From: Archaeoglobales archaeon
GTDB taxonomy: Archaea; Halobacteriota; Archaeoglobi; Archaeoglobales; Archaeoglobaceae
NCBI GenBank assembly: GCA_030055595.1
Contig: JASFYH010000002.1
Span: 1-64,000 of the forward strand
Reading direction: 5' to 3'
DNA length: 64,000 nucleotides
Shown here: positions 5,474 to 15,582 of the stretch, piece after piece
How the letters are laid out: each line of letters opens with the position of its first letter
Position numbering within the stretch: position 1 is the first letter of the stretch
Position numbers and translations under genes: made by a program
Notes under the pieces: generated by a model
The model's input: only the letters and a program-made list of their open reading frames with translations
Databases searched by the model: none
Told to the model about the DNA's origin: nothing

Positions 5474-6209
5474 AAGCCTGACTTATTCCTATGGAAAAAG
5501 AGACGTGCTAAAGGATATCGCTTTCTCGCTTGAAAGAGGGGAAATGCTCTTTATAATTGGTCCAAATGGTAGCGGTAAAACAACACTTCTGAAGTGTCTG
5601 AATGGGATTTTAAAGCCAAAAGGTTCAGTTTATGTTGAAAAAATTAATTTAAACAAGCTAAATCCACTGGAAATTGCGAAAAAAATGGGCTATGTTCCTC
5701 AGAGAGGAGAAATAAGTTTTCTTACGGTCTTTGATGCAATTTTACTCGGAAGAAAGCCCTACATAAAATGGGAAGTTAGTGAGAAAGACGTTAAGATTGT
5801 AGAGGAAACAATAAAAATGCTAAAAATTGAGCATTTAGCTCTAAGAAAACTCAACGAGCTAAGCGGTGGAGAACTACAGCTTGTTTTGATAGCGAGGGCT
5901 CTTGCACAACAGCCAAGGTATTTGCTCCTTGATGAGCCAACAAACAACCTTGACATTAAAAACCAGATAGAAGTCATGAGATTGGTCAAAACTGCTGTGG
6001 AAGATAAGGGCATTTCTGCAATCGTAACGGTGCATGACATAAATCTTGCTCTCAATTACGCTGAAAAAGTCCTCGTGCTTAAGGAGGGTAAAATTTTTGC
6101 CTTTGGTGGCAGAGAAGTGGTCAATGAAGAACTGCTATGTGCGGTTTACGGCATTAAAGCGGAAATCGTGAAGTATGATGGAAGAGTTTTTGTAATTCCT
6201 GAACTTTGA
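5460..6209 (+). CDS. FecE/BtuD-type ABC transporter ATP-binding protein
   Basis: About 249 residues with Walker A GPNGSGKTTLL, the LSGGELQLVLIARAL signature, Walker B YLLLDEPTNNLD and the switch histidine in VTVHDINLAL. It powers the importer formed with the preceding permease and lipoprotein. I chose GTG 5460 because GGGGTGG lies about 5 bases upstream; the in-frame GTG at 5451 has no spacing to a ribosome binding site. This is the last gene of the FmdE-transporter operon. Confidence 0.9.
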   Translation: MLEAESLTYSYGKRDVLKDIAFSLERGEMLFIIGPNGSGKTTLLKCLNGILKPKGSVYVEKINLNKLNPLEIAKKMGYVPQRGEISFLTVFDAILLGRKPYIKWEVSEKDVKIVEETIKMLKIEHLALRKLNELSGGELQLVLIARALAQQPRYLLLDEPTNNLDIKNQIEVMRLVKTAVEDKGISAIVTVHDINLALNYAEKVLVLKEGKIFAFGGREVVNEELLCAVYGIKAEIVKYDGRVFVIPEL

Positions 6210-6249
6210 ACTGAAACAAGGAAAACATAATAAAGATCAAAAATCACAA

Positions 6250-6813
6250 TTGATCGTGGTGCACATTAGGTTGTCTGAAGAAGCGGAGCAATTGGTGAGA
6301 AAGGACCTTAAGACTGAAAAGCAAAAGAAATACAATTTCGACTTCTTTATAGATGAGGAGAAATATATAAGATGGGAAGACGTTGAGATCGGAATGGAAG
6401 CTTGGAGCGAGAAGGAATTTGAGGTAAAAGAAGAAGACATAAAGGCTTATTTAGAGGCGACGGATAACTACAACCCGGTTTTCTGGGAAGAAGGTGTAGC
6501 TCCTCCAATGTTTCTAACAACCATTGCTTTCTGGCTAATTGGCGACTCTTTTGTTGGAAGCTGGATAAAAACACCCGGAGCAATAAATCCGGGACAAAAG
6601 ATCGAATTCTACGAGCCTATAAAAGTTGGAGATGTGATCAGAGTTAAAATGAGGGCTCATGATAAGTTCATAAAGAGGGAAAAGAGGTATCTGACGTATT
6701 ACAACGAATTCGTAAATCAAAGAGGCGAGATCGTTGCAAAGTGGTGGGGGACGCTAATTCTTCCGATCTCGAAGAGCAAGGAAGAACATAAGATCGAAGG
6801 TGTGCGGAGGTGA
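6250..6813 (+). CDS. MaoC-like dehydratase (FAS1-like N-terminal half)
   Basis: A 187-residue hot-dog fold protein resembling the FAS1-type dehydratase domain: YLEATDNYNPVFWEE in place of the usual catalytic D-x4-H segment, followed by GQKIEFYEPIKVGDVIRVK. The canonical hydratase His is missing, so it is probably the non-catalytic half of a two-subunit enoyl-CoA hydratase. The catalytic half is encoded immediately downstream. The start is uncertain: TTG 6250 and GTG 6256/6259 are all possible and none has a clear ribosome binding site. Confidence 0.78.
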   Translation: MIVVHIRLSEEAEQLVRKDLKTEKQKKYNFDFFIDEEKYIRWEDVEIGMEAWSEKEFEVKEEDIKAYLEATDNYNPVFWEEGVAPPMFLTTIAFWLIGDSFVGSWIKTPGAINPGQKIEFYEPIKVGDVIRVKMRAHDKFIKREKRYLTYYNEFVNQRGEIVAKWWGTLILPISKSKEEHKIEGVRR

Positions 6814-6817
6814 TCGA

Positions 6818-7240
6818 ATGAGATTCGAAGATCTTGAGTTAGAACAGCTTTTACCAACAATTGAAGTTAAAGTGACACAGGAAATGATCACGAGATTTGC
6901 CTGCGCCTCTCTTGATTTCAATCCCATCCATATTGACCCCGTATGGGCTAAAAAGATAAATCTATTAGGCTATGGAAAAACGATCGCCCATGGACAGTGG
7001 ACGATCGATAAGTTGACGCAAGTTGTTACGAATTGGTGCTACGCTGAAGGAGGAAAGCTGAAGTCAATTGACATAAAGCTCATTCACCCGATCTTTGCGG
7101 GAGACACGATCAAATTCAATGGCAAGGTTGTAGCGAAACATCCTCGAAGAGAGGACAGCTTTTGCGAGATAGAGCTATGGGCCGAGAACCAGAATGGAGA
7201 AAAAGTTGCAGTGGGGGTGGCTGAAGTATTTATAAAATAG
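6818..7240 (+). CDS. MaoC-like (R)-specific enoyl-CoA hydratase, catalytic subunit
   Basis: A 140-residue MaoC hot-dog protein with the hydratase signature DFNPIHID (Asp and His separated by four residues) and the following GYGKTIAHGQW loop. By family knowledge it hydrates 2-enoyl-CoA or acts in 3-hydroxyacyl-CoA turnover. ATG 6818 is preceded by GGAGGTGATC, which decides it over the in-frame GTG at 6800. It lies four bases after the companion MaoC gene and likely forms a heteromer with it. Confidence 0.85.
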   Translation: MRFEDLELEQLLPTIEVKVTQEMITRFACASLDFNPIHIDPVWAKKINLLGYGKTIAHGQWTIDKLTQVVTNWCYAEGGKLKSIDIKLIHPIFAGDTIKFNGKVVAKHPRREDSFCEIELWAENQNGEKVAVGVAEVFIK

Positions 7241-7258
7241 TAAAAATAGATATTTAAA

Positions 7259-8029
7259 CTATCTACCCTTGAACTCAGGCTTTCTCTTGCTGAAAAAGGC
7301 ATTTATGCCCTCAGCAACGTCCTGAGTAGTTGTTGCAACTCCAAAAGCGAGCTCTTCCATAAACTTACCGAGCTCACTCGGAAGATCCGAACCGAAGTTG
7401 ATCGCATACTTCACAGCCCGTAGACTAATAGGTGGCATCTCAGCAAGTTGTTTTGCAAGATCCATGACTTCTTTTTCGAAATTCTCTGGATCTACAGCCT
7501 TCGCAAGTCCGATCTTTTCCGCTTCGTCCGCTGTAATTCTCTTTGCAAGCATGATCATTTCCTTTGCCTTTGCAATGCCAACGATTTTAGGCAATCTCTG
7601 CGTCCCTCCCCAGCCCGGAATAAGCCCTAAGCTAACTTCTGTGAGACCGATCTTAGCTCCTCTTTTCATTATTCGGAAATCACACGCTAAAGCTAATTCA
7701 CAGCCACCACCAAATGCATAGCCATTTATAGCAGCGATCACAGGCTTAGGGAACTTTTCGATCTGCGAGAAAACTTCGTTGCCTTTGCTTGTGATCCAGA
7801 GCATCTTTGCATGTGAGAAGTCGAAATTCGCCTGCAGATCAAAACCCGCTGAGAACGCCTTATCCCCCGCACCTGTTATTACAAGCACTCTAACTTCATC
7901 AGAAGTTTCAAGCTCTTTTAAAGCGGTCGAGAGCTCTTCCAAGGTTTCCATATCGAGAGAGTTTAGCTTCTGAGGTCGATTTATGGTGATCTTTGCCACC
8001 AATCCTTTCTCAACCAGAATGTTTTTCAT
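7259..8029 (-). CDS. Enoyl-CoA hydratase/isomerase (crotonase family)
   Basis: A 256-residue crotonase-fold protein. It has the oxyanion-hole segments AFSAGFDL and NGYAFGGGCELALACDFR and the catalytic region GLTEVSLGLIPGWGGTQRLP, with Glu in both usual active-site positions (GGGCE and LTEV). The likely reaction is (S)-specific 2-enoyl-CoA hydration in fatty-acid beta-oxidation. ATG 8029 follows GGGTGAGG and is preferred over the in-frame GTG at 8038. It is convergent with the MaoC pair, and the 18-bp gap suggests functional grouping but separate transcription. Confidence 0.9.
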   Translation of the reverse strand: MKNILVEKGLVAKITINRPQKLNSLDMETLEELSTALKELETSDEVRVLVITGAGDKAFSAGFDLQANFDFSHAKMLWITSKGNEVFSQIEKFPKPVIAAINGYAFGGGCELALACDFRIMKRGAKIGLTEVSLGLIPGWGGTQRLPKIVGIAKAKEMIMLAKRITADEAEKIGLAKAVDPENFEKEVMDLAKQLAEMPPISLRAVKYAINFGSDLPSELGKFMEELAFGVATTTQDVAEGINAFFSKRKPEFKGR

Positions 8030-8295
8030 TTCCCTCACCCTTTTGCAAATTGTATAGGGTATAATAAATCATTTTCTCTTTTAAACCGCTAAACTTTTTC
8101 GATCTAAGGGCTTCTTGGAGGACTTGATTAGCCAATTTCGATGTTTTCTCTCCGGAATGCATTTTGGGATTAAAAGCGAGTTTAAAAGATACCCTGAGTC
8201 AGGCTACTGGACTGATCCAATATTTAAATTTGGTTAATTTTTTAAATCGTGTCGCTCCAAAAATCTATTAAGTCCAGAAGTAACAACTAACTCGA

Positions 8296-8368
8296 GCCGC
8301 CGTAGCTCAGCTGGTGGAGCGGTGGCCTGTTAAGCCATTGGTCGCAGGTTCGAACCCTGCCGGCGGCG
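8296..8368 (+). tRNA. tRNA-Asn (GTT)
   Basis: A complete cloverleaf of 73 nt: acceptor GCCGCCG/CGGCGGC, D stem GCTC/GAGC, anticodon stem GTGGC/GCCAT with loop CTGTTAA (anticodon GTT), and T arm GCAGG-TTCGAAC-CCTGC. The discriminator is G and CCA is not encoded. There is no intron. The rest of the 8040-8534 interval is AT-rich and shows no gene. Confidence 0.97.
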
Positions 8369-8480: not shown

Positions 8481-8514
8481 GAGACTTTTTTAGATTTTTA
8501 TCATTGAGACTTTT
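8481..8514 (+). promoter_or_regulatory. Direct repeat GAGACTTTT upstream of the HTH regulator
   Basis: GAGACTTTT occurs at 8481-8489 and again at 8506-8514, 25 bp apart start to start (about two and a half helical turns). Both copies lie 20-55 bp before the ATG of the HTH_10 regulator. This is a plausible tandem binding site, perhaps for autoregulation. The sequence is AT-rich, so chance is possible. Confidence 0.25.
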
Positions 8515-8534
8515 ACTAACCCAAAAGCTATTTA

Positions 8535-9158
8535 ATGGTAGCCGAGAAATCGTTATGGATGCTGAAAATTGAAATAAAAACACCATTAATGGCGGAGTGT
8601 GCGCTTGTTGGAATAAAAGAATTGGCTAAGTCTTTTGAGATAAGCGTGGAAACTTTGGCGAATCTTGACGACTCTGTCAAGGCAATTTTGGAAATGAAAG
8701 TCGAAAATGCGGAGAATTTGATACAAAAACTCCCTGAATTATGTATTGGTTTTAAAATTTCGAAAACTACAGCAAAAGTCCTTTTGAAAGAGCACCCATG
8801 CTTAATAGCTCCTGTTTTCCTTAGATCAGGCGCATTAATAACAAAAATGCGTGTTGAAGATTCAGAACTTATCTGGAGTATCGTATGCGATGATGAAAGC
8901 TTTTTGAAGCTCATGGAAGCTCTTGAAAGTGCTGAAATTGAATACGAGATCATTTATAAAGGTAGGCTTGAGTCTGAGGACACAATTACGCTGAGAGAAG
9001 AGGAAATTCTCAAAATTGCCCTCCAAAAAGGATTCTTCGATTATCCAAGGAAAATAAGGCTTGAAGAGCTTGCAAAGCAATTGGGAATGGCTCCTTCAAC
9101 GCTTTCGGAGATCATGAGGAGGGGACAAAAAAAGATCCTGCAAAAGTTTTTCGAGTGA
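8535..9158 (+). CDS. HTH_10 (Bat-like) transcriptional regulator
   Basis: A 207-residue protein. The last 55 residues (REEEILKIALQKGFFDYPRK, then LEELAKQLGMAPSTLSEIMR) are the HTH_10 domain of the bacterio-opsin-activator family. The N-terminal 150 residues are the sensor-like region typical of that family and show no recognisable ligand motif. It ends 46 bp before the CooS-like gene and reads the same way, so it is the obvious candidate regulator of that cluster. The ATG lies just after a TATTTAATG stretch with no ribosome binding site. Confidence 0.85.
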   Translation: MVAEKSLWMLKIEIKTPLMAECALVGIKELAKSFEISVETLANLDDSVKAILEMKVENAENLIQKLPELCIGFKISKTTAKVLLKEHPCLIAPVFLRSGALITKMRVEDSELIWSIVCDDESFLKLMEALESAEIEYEIIYKGRLESEDTITLREEEILKIALQKGFFDYPRKIRLEELAKQLGMAPSTLSEIMRRGQKKILQKFFE

Positions 9159-9204
9159 AGAATTTCGGGAAAAATGTTATGTTCTTTCATTTTGTATTTA
9201 CCCC

Positions 9205-11061
9205 ATGAAACTCGAAAAACCAAGTTACCACGAAAGCATAAACCAGATGTATGAAAAAGTGAAGAACGAGACTACAAATGTCGTGGACAGATTTAACGAG
9301 CAGGAAAAGACTCGCTGTCCATTCTGCACTCGTGGCCTAAGCTGTCAGCTTTGTAGCATGGGTCCTTGCAGAATAAGCGAAAAGAACCCGTATGGAGCTT
9401 GCGGAATAGATGCTGCGGGAATGGTGATAAGAAACTTTGTCCACAAAAACATGTTAGGCACAGAAGCTTATACCTATCATGCAATCGAAGCTTTGAAAAC
9501 GTTAAAGGCTACAGCGGAAGGAAAAACACCATTTGAAATTAAAGAGCCTGAAAAGCTTAGATGGCTTGCTAATCTGCTTGGAATTGATGGTAGCAATATT
9601 AAAGAAATCGCAATAAGATTAGCGGATTTTGCAATTGCGGATCTTAGCTCTGCAGATAAAAGCAGAGTTGTGAAAATTATTGCTCCAGAGAAGAGAAAAG
9701 AAGTCTGGAAAAGTATTGAAATTATTCCTGAGGGAATTTTTGGAGAGCTTTTAACTGTTGGAACTTCAGCAATGACTAACGTGGACTCAAATTACGTTTC
9801 ATTGGTCAAGAAAAGCATGTCGATGAGTATCACAACATGCATCGCTGCGCAGTTTGTGCTGGAAATGGTTCAGGACATCCTTTTTGGCACTCCAATGCCA
9901 CATGAAAGCTTTGCAGACCTTGGAATTCTCGAAAAAGATTACGTGAACATTGCAGTTGATGGGCATGAGCCATTTGTTGGAATGGCATTGATAAAACTTG
10001 CGGAAAAGGAAGAAGTGCAAGAAATGGCAAGAAAAGCGGGTGCAAAGGGTTTGCGAATCATAGGTTTTATAGAAACTGGGCAGGAAATTTTACAACGCAT
10101 TAGTAGCCCTGTATTCGTTGGATTAGTTGGCAACTGGATCGTTCAGGAATTTGCTCTTGCAACAGGTTGCGTTGATGTATTCGCTGCAGATATGAACTGC
10201 GCTCTGCCTTCTTTACCAGAGTATCAAAAATACGGTGTGAAAATAGTCCCAGTGAGCAGGCTTGTAAGGTTCAGAGGCATCGATGTCGGACTTGAATATA
10301 AGCCTGAAGAGGCTGAGAAAATAGCGAAAAAGCTAATAGAGATTGCTATAGAGAACTTCAGGAAGAGAGATAAAAGTAAAGCGGTAAGAATAGACAAAAA
10401 GCAAAAAATCGTCGTTGGTTTTTCCATCGAAGCGATAGAAAAGCTCGTGGGCTTTGAAACGCTTTTGAATGCAATAAAAGGCGGAAAAATAAAGGGTGTT
10501 GTCGCGCTGGTTAGTTGCACAACTCTGAAGAATGGTCCTCATGATGCGAACACAATTGCAATTGCCAAGGAACTCATAAAGAGAGACATACTTGTGCTCT
10601 CTATGGGCTGTGGAAATGCTGCATTGCAGGTTGCGGGGCTTACGAGCTTAGAAGCCAAGGAATTTGCAGGGGATAAGCTCAAAGCGGTTTGTGAAGCCTT
10701 AAAGATTCCTCCAGTGCTTAGCTTTGGAACCTGCACTGATGTTGGTAGAGCAGGTTATTTGTTAAGATTGCTCGCTGAAAAACTCGGAGTTGATGTTTCA
10801 CAGCTTCCAGTAGCGGTTACGGCTCCAGAATACATGGAACAGAAGGCAACAATAGATGCGGTTTTCGCAATTGCTTATGGACTTGCAACTCATGTTTCCC
10901 CGATTCCTCCAATCACGGGAAGTGATAAAGTTGTAAAATTGCTCACCGAAGACGTGAAAAAGCTTACCGGAGGGAAAGTGATCGTCGAGGAGGATCCAGC
11001 CAAAGCGGTAGATCTGCTTGAAAAAGTGATCTTAGACAAGAGAAAAGCTCTTGGGATCTAA
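9205..11061 (+). CDS. cooS: CooS-family protein (CODH scaffold) with altered C-cluster, CooS-V-like
   Basis: A 618-residue homologue of the Ni-Fe carbon monoxide dehydrogenase catalytic subunit, full length. The N-terminal FeS region has Cys38 and Cys41 (CxxC, D-cluster) and Cys47, Cys50, Cys55, Cys66 (B-cluster). C-cluster ligands matched to Carboxydothermus CODH-II are His254, Cys332, Cys438, Cys469 and Cys510. The sixth, equivalent to Cys295 in GICCTGNE, is Glu290 in GFIETGQE. The acid-base Lys is kept (Lys547). CooS proteins lacking this Cys (CooS-V) hold an Fe/S/O hybrid cluster and do not oxidise CO, so standard CODH activity is doubtful. There is no signal peptide, so it is cytoplasmic. 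No CooF, CooC or acetyl-CoA synthase gene is nearby. Confidence 0.9.
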   Translation: MKLEKPSYHESINQMYEKVKNETTNVVDRFNEQEKTRCPFCTRGLSCQLCSMGPCRISEKNPYGACGIDAAGMVIRNFVHKNMLGTEAYTYHAIEALKTLKATAEGKTPFEIKEPEKLRWLANLLGIDGSNIKEIAIRLADFAIADLSSADKSRVVKIIAPEKRKEVWKSIEIIPEGIFGELLTVGTSAMTNVDSNYVSLVKKSMSMSITTCIAAQFVLEMVQDILFGTPMPHESFADLGILEKDYVNIAVDGHEPFVGMALIKLAEKEEVQEMARKAGAKGLRIIGFIETGQEILQRISSPVFVGLVGNWIVQEFALATGCVDVFAADMNCALPSLPEYQKYGVKIVPVSRLVRFRGIDVGLEYKPEEAEKIAKKLIEIAIENFRKRDKSKAVRIDKKQKIVVGFSIEAIEKLVGFETLLNAIKGGKIKGVVALVSCTTLKNGPHDANTIAIAKELIKRDILVLSMGCGNAALQVAGLTSLEAKEFAGDKLKAVCEALKIPPVLSFGTCTDVGRAGYLLRLLAEKLGVDVSQLPVAVTAPEYMEQKATIDAVFAIAYGLATHVSPIPPITGSDKVVKLLTEDVKKLTGGKVIVEEDPAKAVDLLEKVILDKRKALGI

Positions 11062-11096
11062 CTTTTTAGTTCATTTTTATCTCTTGATTTTTTGGA
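11062..11096 (+). terminator. T-rich terminator candidate after the cooS-like gene
   Basis: Directly after the stop codon there are three T runs (CTTTTTAG, CATTTTTATC, GATTTTTTGG) with no hairpin, the usual form of an archaeal intrinsic terminator. The following gene has its own strong ribosome binding site, so some read-through or a separate promoter is expected. Confidence 0.35.
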
Positions 11097-11158
11097 AATT
11101 GGTGTTAAATTAGAAAAACTTAAAAAGCTAAAACTTGAGCAAAGGAGGAGGTGGGATC

Positions 11159-12424
11159 TTGAGGCTAACCGAGATCATTTTCGTTTCAGCGATGCTCGCT
11201 CTGATCGCTTTGGGGTTCCTTGGAGCATACCAGATCCATTTCGAGAGTCTAATGCCTGTTGAACACTTCGAGTCTGCATTGGGTATTCCATGGAGAACTC
11301 TTGTTGCTCTTTACGTTTTCTTGGTCCTTATCGGAACTGCAGTGATTGCCTCAGCTGCAGAGATCTTGCATATAAGGGAGCTTGAGAGTATTGTAAAAGA
11401 CGCTATAGTAATTGCAGTGCTTTCAATAGCTGTCGGACTTTTAACGATCGCGATTGACTTGGAAAGAGTTGAGAGAGGTGCTTTTGCCCTTTTGGGACAT
11501 GCAAATCCAATGAGCGTGATGTATTGGATGATCATGTTTTACGTTCTCGAAGTTGTTTTTCTGATCTTTGAGGGCTGGTTTTACTTCCGTGCGGATCTTT
11601 TGGCTCAGTCCAAGCTGAAGAACTTCAAGGGTTTTGTTGGCAAACTTTTATCTTTGCGTTTCATTGGGGATCTCTTGTTGAGAATCGAGATCGTCGACTC
11701 TCCTAAGCTTCGTCGAATAGGGAAATTCTTTGTTACTCCCAACAGAGAACTTGACATGAGTTTTGCGAAACCCATCGGCGTAGTAGCCCTAATTACTGCA
11801 ATTTTGGCATATAGCAACCTTGGAGCCCTGTTTGGGGTGACTTATATTCCCCTATGGCATGATGCAACAACTCCGATCTACTTTATCATTTCAGCAATTA
11901 TTGGGGGCTCCGCAGTGCTGATCTTCACCGTCATATTAATTTCGTGGCTTACAGGCTCAGATCAGAAACTGTCCGCCTTGAGAACTTTAAAGAATTTGCT
12001 TGCATTTTCTTTGATCGTTGCAATTTTGTTCAATGCTTGGAAATTCATATTGGTTGGATATCCCGCAGTGAATCAGCAAGCTGTGATCTCGATCAATAAC
12101 CTGCTTTTCGGAGAATACGCTTTGAGATACTGGACATTTGAAGTCCTGATCGGAATGATCGTTCCCTTGGTCTTTCTCGTGATCGCGGGAAACAAGATCA
12201 AGGCTCTTTTCACTTCAGCCTTCTTCGTGATCCTTGGGCTATTTGTATTCAGAATCGACTTCGTATTTGCGGGACAAGTAATAAAGACGATCTCAGGAGT
12301 TTCGATTCCCACGCAGATCCATCCATTCGAGGCAATGTTCGTAACGGGAGCATTGGCATTGGCAGTCTTTGCCTATTATCTCGTTTACAAGCTCTTGCCA
12401 ATGGAGGTGGAGCATGAAGCGTAG
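11159..12424 (+). CDS. NrfD/PsrC-type membrane subunit
   Basis: About 421 residues with roughly ten membrane helices, resembling the NrfD/PsrC/DsrP quinol-interacting subunit (YWMIMFYVLEVVFLIFEGWF; a conserved-looking segment YPAVNQQ between helices). Such subunits exchange electrons between menaquinone and an exported ferredoxin-like partner. TTG 11159 is preferred because GGAGGAGGTGGGATC lies immediately upstream; TTG 11135 has none. The stop overlaps the ferredoxin start, so the two are coupled. Confidence 0.82.
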   Translation: MRLTEIIFVSAMLALIALGFLGAYQIHFESLMPVEHFESALGIPWRTLVALYVFLVLIGTAVIASAAEILHIRELESIVKDAIVIAVLSIAVGLLTIAIDLERVERGAFALLGHANPMSVMYWMIMFYVLEVVFLIFEGWFYFRADLLAQSKLKNFKGFVGKLLSLRFIGDLLLRIEIVDSPKLRRIGKFFVTPNRELDMSFAKPIGVVALITAILAYSNLGALFGVTYIPLWHDATTPIYFIISAIIGGSAVLIFTVILISWLTGSDQKLSALRTLKNLLAFSLIVAILFNAWKFILVGYPAVNQQAVISINNLLFGEYALRYWTFEVLIGMIVPLVFLVIAGNKIKALFTSAFFVILGLFVFRIDFVFAGQVIKTISGVSIPTQIHPFEAMFVTGALALAVFAYYLVYKLLPMEVEHEA

Positions 12425-13097
12425 AGAATTTCTAAAGAGTCTAATTGCTATTCCTATAATACCCACAATTGCTACGCCCTCGAATTCAAAGGAGACGAAG
12501 GAATACGCAATGGTTGTCGATGTTGAGAAGTGCATTGGTTGTGGAAAATGCGTAGTTGCTTGCAAGATCGAGAACCATGTGCCAATGGATCTGCCGATCT
12601 CGAGAACTTGGATCGAGGGTTATCTTGACGGAAAAAAGGTTGTCATGAACACAAAAGAGAACCCCTTCTTGAAGTCAAAGGCTAAAAGTGGCTTCTATGT
12701 GCCAAAGCTGTGCAATCACTGTGCAAATGCTCCTTGCGTAATAGTTTGTCCAGTTTATGCAAGATTTCACACAAAAGAAGGTGTTGTGCTCGTTGATAAG
12801 GACACGTGTATTGGGTGCAAATACTGTATTACCGCTTGCCCCTACGGAGCCACTTTTGTTCATCCGGAAGAGAAGGCTACAGACAAGTGCACCTTCTGCT
12901 ATCACCGACTTATAAGGGGTCTGACGCCCGCATGCGTTGTTGTATGTCCAACTGGTGCAAGAAAATTTGGAACTTTGGAGCAAGGAAGCGAGATCTACGA
13001 AGTGCTGAAGAAGAGTAGAGCAAAAGTTCTCAAACCCGAAGCGGGAACTTTGCCAAGAGTTTTCTACCTCAACCTTGATGCGGTGGTGGAGCTATGA
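12414..13097 (+). CDS. Tat-exported four-cluster ferredoxin subunit (NrfC/PsrB type)
   Basis: A 227-residue protein with a twin-arginine signal at the very N-terminus (KRREFLKSL followed by a hydrophobic stretch). Sixteen cysteines form four [4Fe-4S] motifs: 40/43/46/50, 100/103/108/112, 132/135/138/142 and 159/162/174/178. This is the electron-transfer subunit that pairs with NrfD-type proteins on the outer face of the membrane. ATG 12414 follows GGAGGTGG and overlaps the upstream stop; its own stop overlaps the cytochrome start by 4 bp. Direct contact with the cytoplasmic CooS-like protein would therefore need the membrane subunit or other carriers. Confidence 0.92.
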   Translation: MKRREFLKSLIAIPIIPTIATPSNSKETKEYAMVVDVEKCIGCGKCVVACKIENHVPMDLPISRTWIEGYLDGKKVVMNTKENPFLKSKAKSGFYVPKLCNHCANAPCVIVCPVYARFHTKEGVVLVDKDTCIGCKYCITACPYGATFVHPEEKATDKCTFCYHRLIRGLTPACVVVCPTGARKFGTLEQGSEIYEVLKKSRAKVLKPEAGTLPRVFYLNLDAVVEL

Positions 13098-13519
13098 AGC
13101 CCGCTTTAGTTGTTCTAATTTTAGCGGTGGTCATTTACGGTGTTGTTCTTGCCTACACCTTCGGTTATTCGCCATTGGTAAAGCAGAGCAGTATTGAAAA
13201 TTGGCTGGAAAAAGAAGCCAGCAAGAAACCAAGCTACGTGCAAAGCGATGTTTGCAAGCAATGCCATCTCGAGACCTTTACGACGCTATCGCTTGGCAAT
13301 CACTCAACTGTGGAATGTGCAAGCTGTCATGGAGCGGGCAATGAACATGCCAAGCTAAGAACTGCGGAAAGCATAGTGGTTGAAGACACAAGAGATGCAT
13401 GCATGGTTTGCCACAAGAACATTGCTGGAAGGAATATTGCAGTCGTCGAGGACAACCACGGAAGTGGCGTAAGATGCTCCTACTGCCATGAACCGCATTC
13501 TGCAAACATCCCACAATGA
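13094..13519 (+). CDS. Membrane-anchored tetraheme cytochrome c
   Basis: A 141-residue protein. Residues 4-24 form an uncleaved-looking signal anchor. Four CxxCH haem sites follow at 54-58 (CKQCH), 75-79 (CASCH), 103-107 (CMVCH) and 128-132 (CSYCH), so the haem domain faces outside the cell. The size and spacing resemble small NrfH-like or cytochrome c3/c7-like carriers. It is translationally coupled to the ferredoxin gene and would accept from or donate to the NrfD/FeS module. Multihaem cytochromes are abundant in Fe(III)-reducing Archaeoglobales. Its stop overlaps trmJ by 4 bp. Confidence 0.92.
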   Translation: MKPALVVLILAVVIYGVVLAYTFGYSPLVKQSSIENWLEKEASKKPSYVQSDVCKQCHLETFTTLSLGNHSTVECASCHGAGNEHAKLRTAESIVVEDTRDACMVCHKNIAGRNIAVVEDNHGSGVRCSYCHEPHSANIPQ

Positions 13520-14217
13520 TCCATGTCGTGCTTGTTGAGCTCAAAATTCCCGAAAACATCGGTTTCATTGCCAGACTTGTTAAGAATTTCGGATTTGAAA
13601 AGCTTTACCTATATAAATGCAATGTAACCGAAGAGAGCTTTAAAACCTCCGCACATGCAAGAACCGTGCTCGAAAATGCGGTAGTCGTGGAAGATCTGTT
13701 TTCTTTTCTTTCAAAATTCAACCTGATCGTCGGCACCACAGGGATCTCTGGAGGAGACTATCGTTTCCTTAGAAAGCCATTGTTAACTCCGGAAGAGCTG
13801 ATGGATTACATTGAAGGCGAAGTCGCGGTTCTATTCGGTAGGGAAGACTTTGGATTGCTCAATGAAGAGCTTGAGAGATGCCATATACTTGTGAAGATTC
13901 CAACGAGCGAAGAATACCCAGTAATGAATGTAAGCCACGCAGCAGCAATTCTGCTTTACTTTCTGAGCAAAAAGAAGACTGAAAGTGTGGAGAATCTGGC
14001 AAAAGCTGAAGAGCTCGAGATCTTAATTAAGAAAGTTGCTGAACTCCTTGAGCATGTGAGCTTTCCGAAGCAGAGAGAAAGAAGAGAGCTTGTAACTCTG
14101 AGAAGGGTGCTTGGGAGGGCAAGGCTAAGAGACTATGAGCTTCAGACCCTCTTCGGCATATTTGGCAGAGCTCTGAGCACGATCGAGCGACTGAAGAAAA
14201 ATATTAATACTAAATAG
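13516..14217 (+). CDS. trmJ: TrmJ-like tRNA (Nm32) 2'-O-methyltransferase
   Basis: A 233-residue SPOUT-class protein with the SpoU motifs: IPENIGFIARLVKNFGF (motif 1 with Asn), LFGREDFGL (motif 2) and MNVSHAAAILLYF (motif 3). The C-terminal helical extension is typical of TrmJ, which methylates the ribose of position 32 in tRNA. The start overlaps the cytochrome stop (ATGA), so it is transcribed with the redox cluster although the functions look unrelated. Confidence 0.88.
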   Translation: MIHVVLVELKIPENIGFIARLVKNFGFEKLYLYKCNVTEESFKTSAHARTVLENAVVVEDLFSFLSKFNLIVGTTGISGGDYRFLRKPLLTPEELMDYIEGEVAVLFGREDFGLLNEELERCHILVKIPTSEEYPVMNVSHAAAILLYFLSKKKTESVENLAKAEELEILIKKVAELLEHVSFPKQRERRELVTLRRVLGRARLRDYELQTLFGIFGRALSTIERLKKNINTK

Positions 14218-14226
14218 ATTTTAATT

Positions 14227-15582
14227 GTGAAAACTTTGATCCTTGCTGGCGGTAAGGGAACAAGGCTCTGGCCTTTAAGCAGAGAGTTGATGCCGAAGCA
14301 GTTCATAAAGCTCTTCGATAACTCGACCCTTTTTCAGAAGACCGTTGAAAGAGCTCTACTCTTTTCCAAACCTGAAGAGATATTTATAGTCGCAAATAAG
14401 GAGTATAAATTCAGGATTCTCGACGATCTTGCGGATTTAAGCGTTGAGATTCCTATGGAGAACATATTTTTGGAGCCTAAGGCGAAAAGCACCCTTCCAG
14501 CGATCTTCTGGGTCCTAAAAGCCAATTCCGGAAAATTCGCAGTTTTGCCTTCAGATCATCTGATCGAGGTCAACGAGGATTACAAGAGGGCTTTTAGGTC
14601 TGCAGAGAAGCTTTCTGATGATTACTTGGTCACATTCGGGATTAAGCCAACAAGAGCGCACACGGGCTACGGCTACATAAAACCCGGAAATGAAGCTGGA
14701 GATGGCTTTATCGTAGACGAATTCAAGGAAAAACCAGATCTTGAGACTGCAAAGCAATACGTGCAGAGTGGCTACTACTGGAACAGCGGAATGTTCCTTT
14801 TCGACTCAGTCCTTTTTGTAGAAGAGGTAAAAAAATTGGCTCCAGAGGTTTTCAGAGCGTTTGAGAACTCGAATAGTCCGGAAGAGATCTACGAGAAGTT
14901 TCCAGAGATCTCTGTGGACTACGGAATACTTGAAAAGTCCAAAAAAGTAGCGGTTGTTCCGCTTGCGACGAAATGGAGCGATCTGGGAAGCTTTGACTCT
15001 CTTTACGAAGTGCTGAGTAAAGATGAGCATGGAAATGTTAGCATTGGAGAAAAACCGCTTGCCTTGAACTCAAAAAAGAACCTTGTTGTTAGTCAGAAGC
15101 TAACAGCAATGATCTGCGTTGAAGATCTGATCGTTGTGGATACAGAAGACGCTTTGCTGATTTCTAAATTGGGCGAATCCGAAAAAGTCAAAGAACTGCA
15201 CAAGGTTCTTTCTGCAAAGGGCGATAAGAGGATCGTTGTTCACAGAACCGCTTACAGACCATGGGGTTCCTATACTTTGCTTGAAGAGGGGGAACGTTAT
15301 AAGATCAAGAGGATCACGATCAAGCCCGGAAAAAGGCTAAGTCTGCAGAGACATTATCATAGGAGCGAGCACTGGGTAGTCGTTAAAGGCACCGCAAGAG
15401 TGCTTTTCGACAACAAGGAAATTCTTCTTCGCCCCGGAGAGAGCACTTTCATACCTGCGGGCGTTTTGCACAGGCTTGAAAATCCCGGCAAGGTGGATCT
15501 TGAAGTTATAGAGACGCAGATCGGAGAATACCTTGAAGAAGACGACATAGAAAGAATTGAAGATGACTTTGGCAGAGAGTAG
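14227..15582 (+). CDS. manC: Mannose-1-phosphate guanylyltransferase / mannose-6-phosphate isomerase
   Basis: A 451-residue bifunctional enzyme. The N-terminal nucleotidyltransferase starts with LILAGGKGTRLWPLSRELMP, and residues 345-440 form a cupin type II phosphomannose isomerase domain (LQRHYHRSEHWVVVKGTARV). It interconverts fructose-6-P and mannose-6-P and makes GDP-mannose for glycans. The start is GTG 14227. It abuts, tail to tail, the gene on the opposite strand with no spacer. Confidence 0.93.
   Translation: MKTLILAGGKGTRLWPLSRELMPKQFIKLFDNSTLFQKTVERALLFSKPEEIFIVANKEYKFRILDDLADLSVEIPMENIFLEPKAKSTLPAIFWVLKANSGKFAVLPSDHLIEVNEDYKRAFRSAEKLSDDYLVTFGIKPTRAHTGYGYIKPGNEAGDGFIVDEFKEKPDLETAKQYVQSGYYWNSGMFLFDSVLFVEEVKKLAPEVFRAFENSNSPEEIYEKFPEISVDYGILEKSKKVAVVPLATKWSDLGSFDSLYEVLSKDEHGNVSIGEKPLALNSKKNLVVSQKLTAMICVEDLIVVDTEDALLISKLGESEKVKELHKVLSAKGDKRIVVHRTAYRPWGSYTLLEEGERYKIKRITIKPGKRLSLQRHYHRSEHWVVVKGTARVLFDNKEILLRPGESTFIPAGVLHRLENPGKVDLEVIETQIGEYLEEDDIERIEDDFGRE

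Follow-up and report, generated by a model that had tools for sequence, protein, structure and literature searches.

We analysed a 64,000-nucleotide stretch of an Archaeoglobales archaeon genome (assembly GCA_030055595.1, contig JASFYH010000002.1, positions 1 to 64,000 of the forward strand), hereafter the window. On its plus strand lie, in order, a gene for an HTH_10 regulator, an operator-like inverted repeat, a gene for a homologue of CooS, the catalytic protein of carbon monoxide dehydrogenase (CODH), and genes for an NrfD-type membrane subunit, an iron–sulfur (FeS) protein and a tetraheme cytochrome c. A preliminary description had proposed a CODH-scaffold hybrid-cluster enzyme with a respiratory partner, acting possibly on an N-oxide. 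The enzyme part of that proposal is supported by the cluster ligands and by neighbours shared with the hybrid cluster protein (HCP); the respiratory partner is not retained. The gene almost certainly encodes a CooS-V-type protein (clade D, group D-1), and we favour, with moderate confidence, an HCP-like reduction (N-oxide or stress-related) carried out within a regulon under HTH_10 control.

CooS-V-type protein and its cluster ligands

The CooS gene (9205..11061, plus strand) encodes 618 amino acids and scores 848 bits against TIGR01702, the CO_DH_cata family profile. Its top match among solved structures is 7b7q (663 bits; 52% identity over 627 positions), followed by Ni-CODHs at 420 bits. 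An AlphaFold model (pLDDT 92.5), which is without cofactor and in which the Glu290 site is placed by alignment, also finds CooS-V as the best structural match (TM 0.97, rmsd 1.6 Å). A signal peptide is absent.

The preliminary description reported that five of six C-cluster ligands are kept and that Glu290 stands where CODH-II has Cys295, and alignment of the open reading frame bears this out (H254, E290, C332, C438, C469 and C510). Scanning 84,980 species genomes as well as the family and phylum of the window yielded 121 distinct Glu-type sequences, 7b7q included. All six positions are invariant in this set, together with N331, K547 and E545, the equivalent of Glu556. The window protein also has C38 and C41; the D-cluster C41 (bridging [2Fe-2S] cluster) is present in 120 of the 121. 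In a tree, the window protein and 7b7q share a 91-tip clade (support 0.989), within which the former falls among 33 tips, mainly thermophilic archaea, that form a subclade (0.961). Support is weak (0.36) at the node joining all Glu-types.

The structure 7b7q is CooS-V of Carboxydothermus hydrogenoformans, in which Glu295 replaces Cys295 of CODH-II (PMC9311411). This protein (7b7q and 7b9a) has the same fold, Cys-to-Glu change, cluster ligands and D-cluster Cys pair as ours; unlike it, the window protein is known from sequence and has an HTH_10 regulator and an operator in its neighbourhood. CooS-V had been described beforehand as lacking a canonical Cys: the Cys is indeed missing, and the same Glu occupies the same place (GSIESGQE). 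The change is therefore not new but a hallmark of a known group, because the Glu of Carboxydothermus CooS-V is a stated synapomorphy of its subclade (PMC9311411); it also corresponds to structural group D-1 of Inoue et al. (PMC6344411).

The CODH annotation and the high TIGR01702 score would agree with an active Ni-CODH whose missing Cys is made good by some other residue, but we consider this extremely unlikely. A canonical Ni,Fe-CODH site has five Cys and one His; here the first Cys is Glu, and we looked for an alternative sixth-ligand Cys and found none in the alignment. Moreover, the ligand set is identical to that of Carboxydothermus CooS-V, which is without Ni, carries a [4Fe-3S-nO] cluster and does not oxidise CO, and the C295E variant of CODH-II is Ni-deficient and inactive (PMC9311411). 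Clade D ‘CODHs’ occur commonly and carry the label CO dehydrogenase, yet the single member studied cannot oxidise CO; these genes should not be counted as evidence of CO metabolism. Among the open frames at approximately 4.4–20 kb of the window, only some of which were scanned, no cooC, cooF or acetyl-CoA synthase gene was recognised, as had been noted earlier.

A third ligand type was observed in locus L198 (genome G080, 5510-7399), in which a CooS relative has Asp (MDTGQE) at the Glu/Cys position; it lies outside the Glu-type clade, yet is its closest neighbour.

HTH_10 regulator and operator-like motif

The HTH_10 gene reported upstream of cooS is real (PF04967, E 5e-20) and occupies 8559..9158 on the plus strand, the longest open reading frame running from 8535. 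The encoded protein combines a C-terminal HTH_10 domain with an N-terminal domain that holds four Cys and one His, all of which are invariant in the 24 orthologues examined. The N-terminal domain has no Pfam match, and a model of the regulator (pLDDT 75) has no match in the PDB at E 0.001. HTH_10 genes adjoin CooS-V genes in 12 distinct loci, on the same strand in some and divergently in others. Within the family (55 genomes), an orthologue of the regulator is found in 23 of the 25 genomes with CooS-V (three copies broken) and in 7 of the remaining 30 (p 3e-7, with no correction for relatedness). Judging by this distribution, the regulator is a conserved partner of CooS-V. Copies in genomes G050 and G052 hold stop codons and the copy in G001 (below) is in pieces, pointing to repeated decay of the regulator.

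The operator-like inverted repeat TGAAGAATTTCGGG (9156..9169, plus strand) overlaps the end of the regulator gene, and its first base lies 49 nt upstream of the CooS start. It differs at two positions from the consensus CGAAnATnTTmGGG, a near-palindrome with its first base usually 47–56 nt before the CooS-V start codon, just ahead of the presumed BRE/TATA. Among 32 upstream regions of the window clade, 24 match the consensus with one mismatch or none (0.02 expected from dinucleotide shuffles) and 28 with two or fewer (0.29 expected); the consensus was read from these same sequences, a bias much too small to account for the excess. Genomes with an unlinked HTH_10 gene (G049, G014, G023, G025, G026 and G032) have the motif as well. 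In Archaeoglobus fulgidus (G001), the Glu-type protein AF1849 is 78% identical to the window CooS and has an operator site in front; unlike in the window, no NrfD module follows and the adjoining HTH_10 gene is broken into pieces (L117, ~7500-8000).

An exact scan across the family placed operators before a gene for a 140-amino-acid protein, here called the WPVKI protein (G001, G003, G033, G050 and G054), and before the G041 HTH_10 gene and a small number of other genes. The motif lies 46–60 nt upstream of all 16 WPVKI genes that were scored, with no more than three mismatches. In several genomes the WPVKI gene is followed by one for a small ferredoxin, and this operon is not linked to CooS-V. 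Operators also stand ~50 nt before the start of HAO-like octaheme cytochromes in the Geoglobus-type genomes G025, G026 and G027 (L233, L235 and L261). We take G001 to be A. fulgidus, G026 to be G. acetivorans, G027 to be G. ahangari and G383, among the other genomes compared, to be M. acetivorans. A large operator regulon was considered and rejected: the 55 genomes yield 46 exact matches compared with ~40 for a reversed control pattern. As these totals barely exceed the control, we trust matches only just upstream of repeated gene families; those at NapH-like, Mo-enzyme and cytochrome c genes amount to one or two sites.

In the methanogen/ANME-type loci L194, L082, L084 and L090, CooS-V is preceded at 51 nt by a related motif, TGATAATATTCGGGAATCC, yet no HTH_10 gene was noticed in the vicinity.

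HCP-shared partners and a possible function

The window CooS falls well short of the HCP profile (TIGR01703, 41.9 bits compared with a cut-off of 360.8), HCP forming a separate branch of the superfamily, but it may work like HCP without belonging to that family. The HCP systems of Desulfovibrio and Clostridium, in which HCP acts with FrdX under HcpR, offer the closest functional comparison, and a hybrid Fe/S/O cluster would be expected in the window protein too. Ferredoxin-like genes linked to hcp are known as frdX (PMC1274295, PMC12915319); in Clostridium difficile, NO co-induces frdX and hcp approximately 200-fold, and knockdown of either leads to NO sensitivity (PMC12915319).

HCP-type systems share FrdX-like, cupin and ferredoxin:thioredoxin reductase (FTR) neighbours with relatives of the window CooS-V. 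A ferredoxin-fusion protein has a C-terminal half homologous to the WPVKI protein (30–36% identity, E down to 3e-22). This fusion, with its WPVKI domain, occurs near CooS-V in 17 other loci; in 12 loci, spread over 10 genomes, it lies within ~1.3 kb of hcp, in two of them 41 bp downstream. We call it FrdX-like on the basis of its size, domain and hcp linkage. Cupin genes accompany 17 of 30 HCP loci and 11 of 120 CooS-V loci; the corresponding counts for FTR genes are 10 of 30 and 10 of 120. Flavodiiron protein, rubrerythrin, HAO-like cytochrome and Crp/Fnr or Rrf2 regulators are found in other CooS-V loci, and an HAO-like gene beside the cooS of Methanoperedens BLZ2 has already been drawn (PMC13079737).

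We assign the HCP-like role because the hybrid-cluster ligands are fully conserved with CooS-V and because neighbours are shared with HCP. The unresponsiveness of AF1849 transcription to CO also favours it: this gene showed no differential expression with CO in A. fulgidus (PMC4543118). Positions 8559-11061 of the window would then form a two-gene unit of the CooS-V-type protein and its regulator. With its invariant Cys the regulator would respond to a redox or N-oxide signal, and it would bind the operator. CooS-V, probably cytosolic and fed by a low-potential ferredoxin, would use a [4Fe-3S-nO] cluster to reduce a small, toxic oxidant (NO, hydroxylamine or a similar compound). It would fill an HCP-like role for a family that yielded no HCP: a search of the phylum returned no Archaeoglobaceae genome among the HCP matches. 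The regulon would be an archaeal counterpart of the HcpR regulon; HcpR itself, a CRP/FNR-type protein with its own palindrome, is unrelated to the HTH_10 regulator and its different operator, so that the latter works like HcpR at most.

Several observations weigh against this proposal. Purified CooS-V reduces hydroxylamine slowly (0.13 per second) and NO not detectably (PMC9311411). The related sequences that we counted are not independent events, and binding of the HTH_10 protein to CGAAnATnTTmGGG is something that we infer. The neighbourhoods of Glu-type cooS genes are very variable (also PMC13056359). No second operator site above the control level was found in the window genome, nor was a WPVKI/FrdX-like protein; the FrdX-like protein is also absent from G052 and broken in G050.

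Two other functions have to be weighed against the HCP-like reduction. CooS-V might mainly guard against oxygen or peroxide, as part of a general oxidative-stress response of anaerobes rather than one to N-oxides. Rubrerythrin, flavodiiron protein, FTR and Fnr/Rrf2 neighbours suit O2 as well as NO, and HCP also reduces peroxide (PMC9311411). However, the HAO-like cytochrome and the frdX-type partners point to N-oxides, and hcpR of C. difficile protects against nitrosative but not oxidative stress (PMC12915319); we regard this function as unlikely. Less likely again, CooS-V could act in redox sensing or regulation, with no catalysis of physiological relevance. Such a role would fit the very low turnover of CooS-V (PMC9311411), and a 2026 survey in eLife, which found no clear pattern in clade D neighbourhoods, suggested redox-sensing or regulatory roles (PMC13056359). 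Against it stand the full conservation of the active site across archaea and bacteria, the redox-gated substrate channel (PMC9311411) and the ferredoxin partner genes.

A broader version of the HCP-like reading is more tentative, its chances falling a little short of even: CooS-V may be a second, CODH-derived solution to the job of HCP that, in Archaeoglobi and neighbouring archaeal lineages, forms together with the ferredoxin/WPVKI protein the core of an undescribed nitrosative-stress regulon, governed by the Cys-rich HTH_10 regulator via CGAAnATnTTmGGG. Our search of the literature found no description of an HTH_10/CooS-V regulon. Thanks to the HCP-shared partners, the regulator and the operator, the physiological role of CooS-V lends itself to direct tests. 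Replacement of HCP by CooS-V was not retained; it fits the family, but across the phylum (a CooS-V-like match in 98 of 394 genomes) co-occurrence is at about the chance level.

The neighbouring NrfD module

The three genes downstream of CooS are as first described. They encode an NrfD membrane subunit (11159..12424; PF03916, E 9e-32), a Tat-type FeS protein (12414..13097; PF13247) with 16 Cys counted from its RRxFLK start, and a cytochrome c with four CXXCH motifs (13094..13519), all on the plus strand. The most likely starts are the TTG at 11159 behind GGAGGTG, rather than 11135, for NrfD and 12414 for the FeS protein, whose best models are of the TtrB, DsrO and NrfC type, each below its cut-off. 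Genes for a TrmJ family methyltransferase (13516-14217; TIGR00050) and a mannose-1-P guanylyltransferase (14227-15582; TIGR01479) follow on the same strand, both over the profile cut-off and supported by synteny; in the genus of the window, TrmJ is the usual downstream neighbour of the module, often along with the guanylyltransferase. In other genera (L165-L168), the module is extended by tri- and pentaheme cytochromes and an HdrD/DsrK-like protein.

The preliminary description linked CooS to this module, and CooS-V could in principle be the catalytic subunit of a respiratory system in which electrons pass from quinol through NrfD and the FeS protein to the tetraheme cytochrome. To examine such coupling, we searched the family and the phylum, looked at synteny, compared the DNA with that of a sister species, built gene trees and aligned promoters. 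The genes share a strand and lie 74–97 bp apart; CooS-V directly precedes the module in the window genome (G000) and in G050, and lies ~4 kb from it, on the other side of the block, in G052. The FrdX-like protein is missing or broken in these same three genomes, as noted above. Direct adjacency is confined to G000 and G050; across the neighbourhoods of Glu-type CooS genes in relatives, linkage to the membrane genes is not conserved. NrfD orthologues occur in 17 of the 55 family genomes and 21 of the 394 phylum genomes. The module is found without a CooS-V match in G046, G047 and other genera, and most CooS-V genomes lack the module (for example, Geoglobus-like G025-G029 and several g2 genomes).

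In the sister species G053, CooS is 97% identical, yet CooS-V and the module are on different contigs. DNA homology to this genome (L113) covers 8485-11061 at 96.6% and breaks off precisely with the CooS stop codon; a second contig picks it up from 11106 onwards at 84.8%. An MBL-fold gene lies downstream of CooS there. Although the genes are adjacent in the window, T-tracts behind the CooS stop (11062..11095, plus strand) may form an archaeal terminator, and a BRE/TATA-like promoter block, AAATTAGAAAAACTTAAAAAGCT (11107..11129, plus strand), precedes NrfD. This block is nearly invariant in five genomes, three of which have no CooS-V in front, and together with the T-tracts it argues against a shared CooS/NrfD transcription unit.

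We therefore reject a functional CooS-V/NrfD complex on the basis of the distribution, the contig split in G053, the module’s own promoter-like block, the T-tracts and the seemingly exported FeS protein and cytochrome next to a CooS without signal peptide. The respiratory role is highly improbable, somewhat more so than that of a sensor; a slight chance is left to it in the G000/G050/G052 group. That the module is an independent electron-transfer complex, unrelated to CooS-V, is well supported; a rearrangement would have placed its genes beside CooS-V. It resembles complexes of the DsrMKJOP, Tmc, Hmc and NrfCD/TtrBC type; unlike these, it is without a catalytic subunit, and no functional tie to CooS-V was found.

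The regulator and CooS-V pair is 96.6% identical to that of G053 and is flanked by regions of 90% and 85% identity, so the pair may move as a unit. The NrfD of G053 (L158) groups with that of G046 rather than G000, whereas TrmJ shows G000 and G053 as sisters, suggesting gene replacement within the module. Upstream of the regulator, a MaoC/FAS1-dehydratase pair and an enoyl-CoA hydratase (6250-8038) adjoin a tRNA-Asn gene (8296-8368); at the equivalent site of G053 no DNA matching this region was found, and the region may represent an insertion at the tRNA gene.

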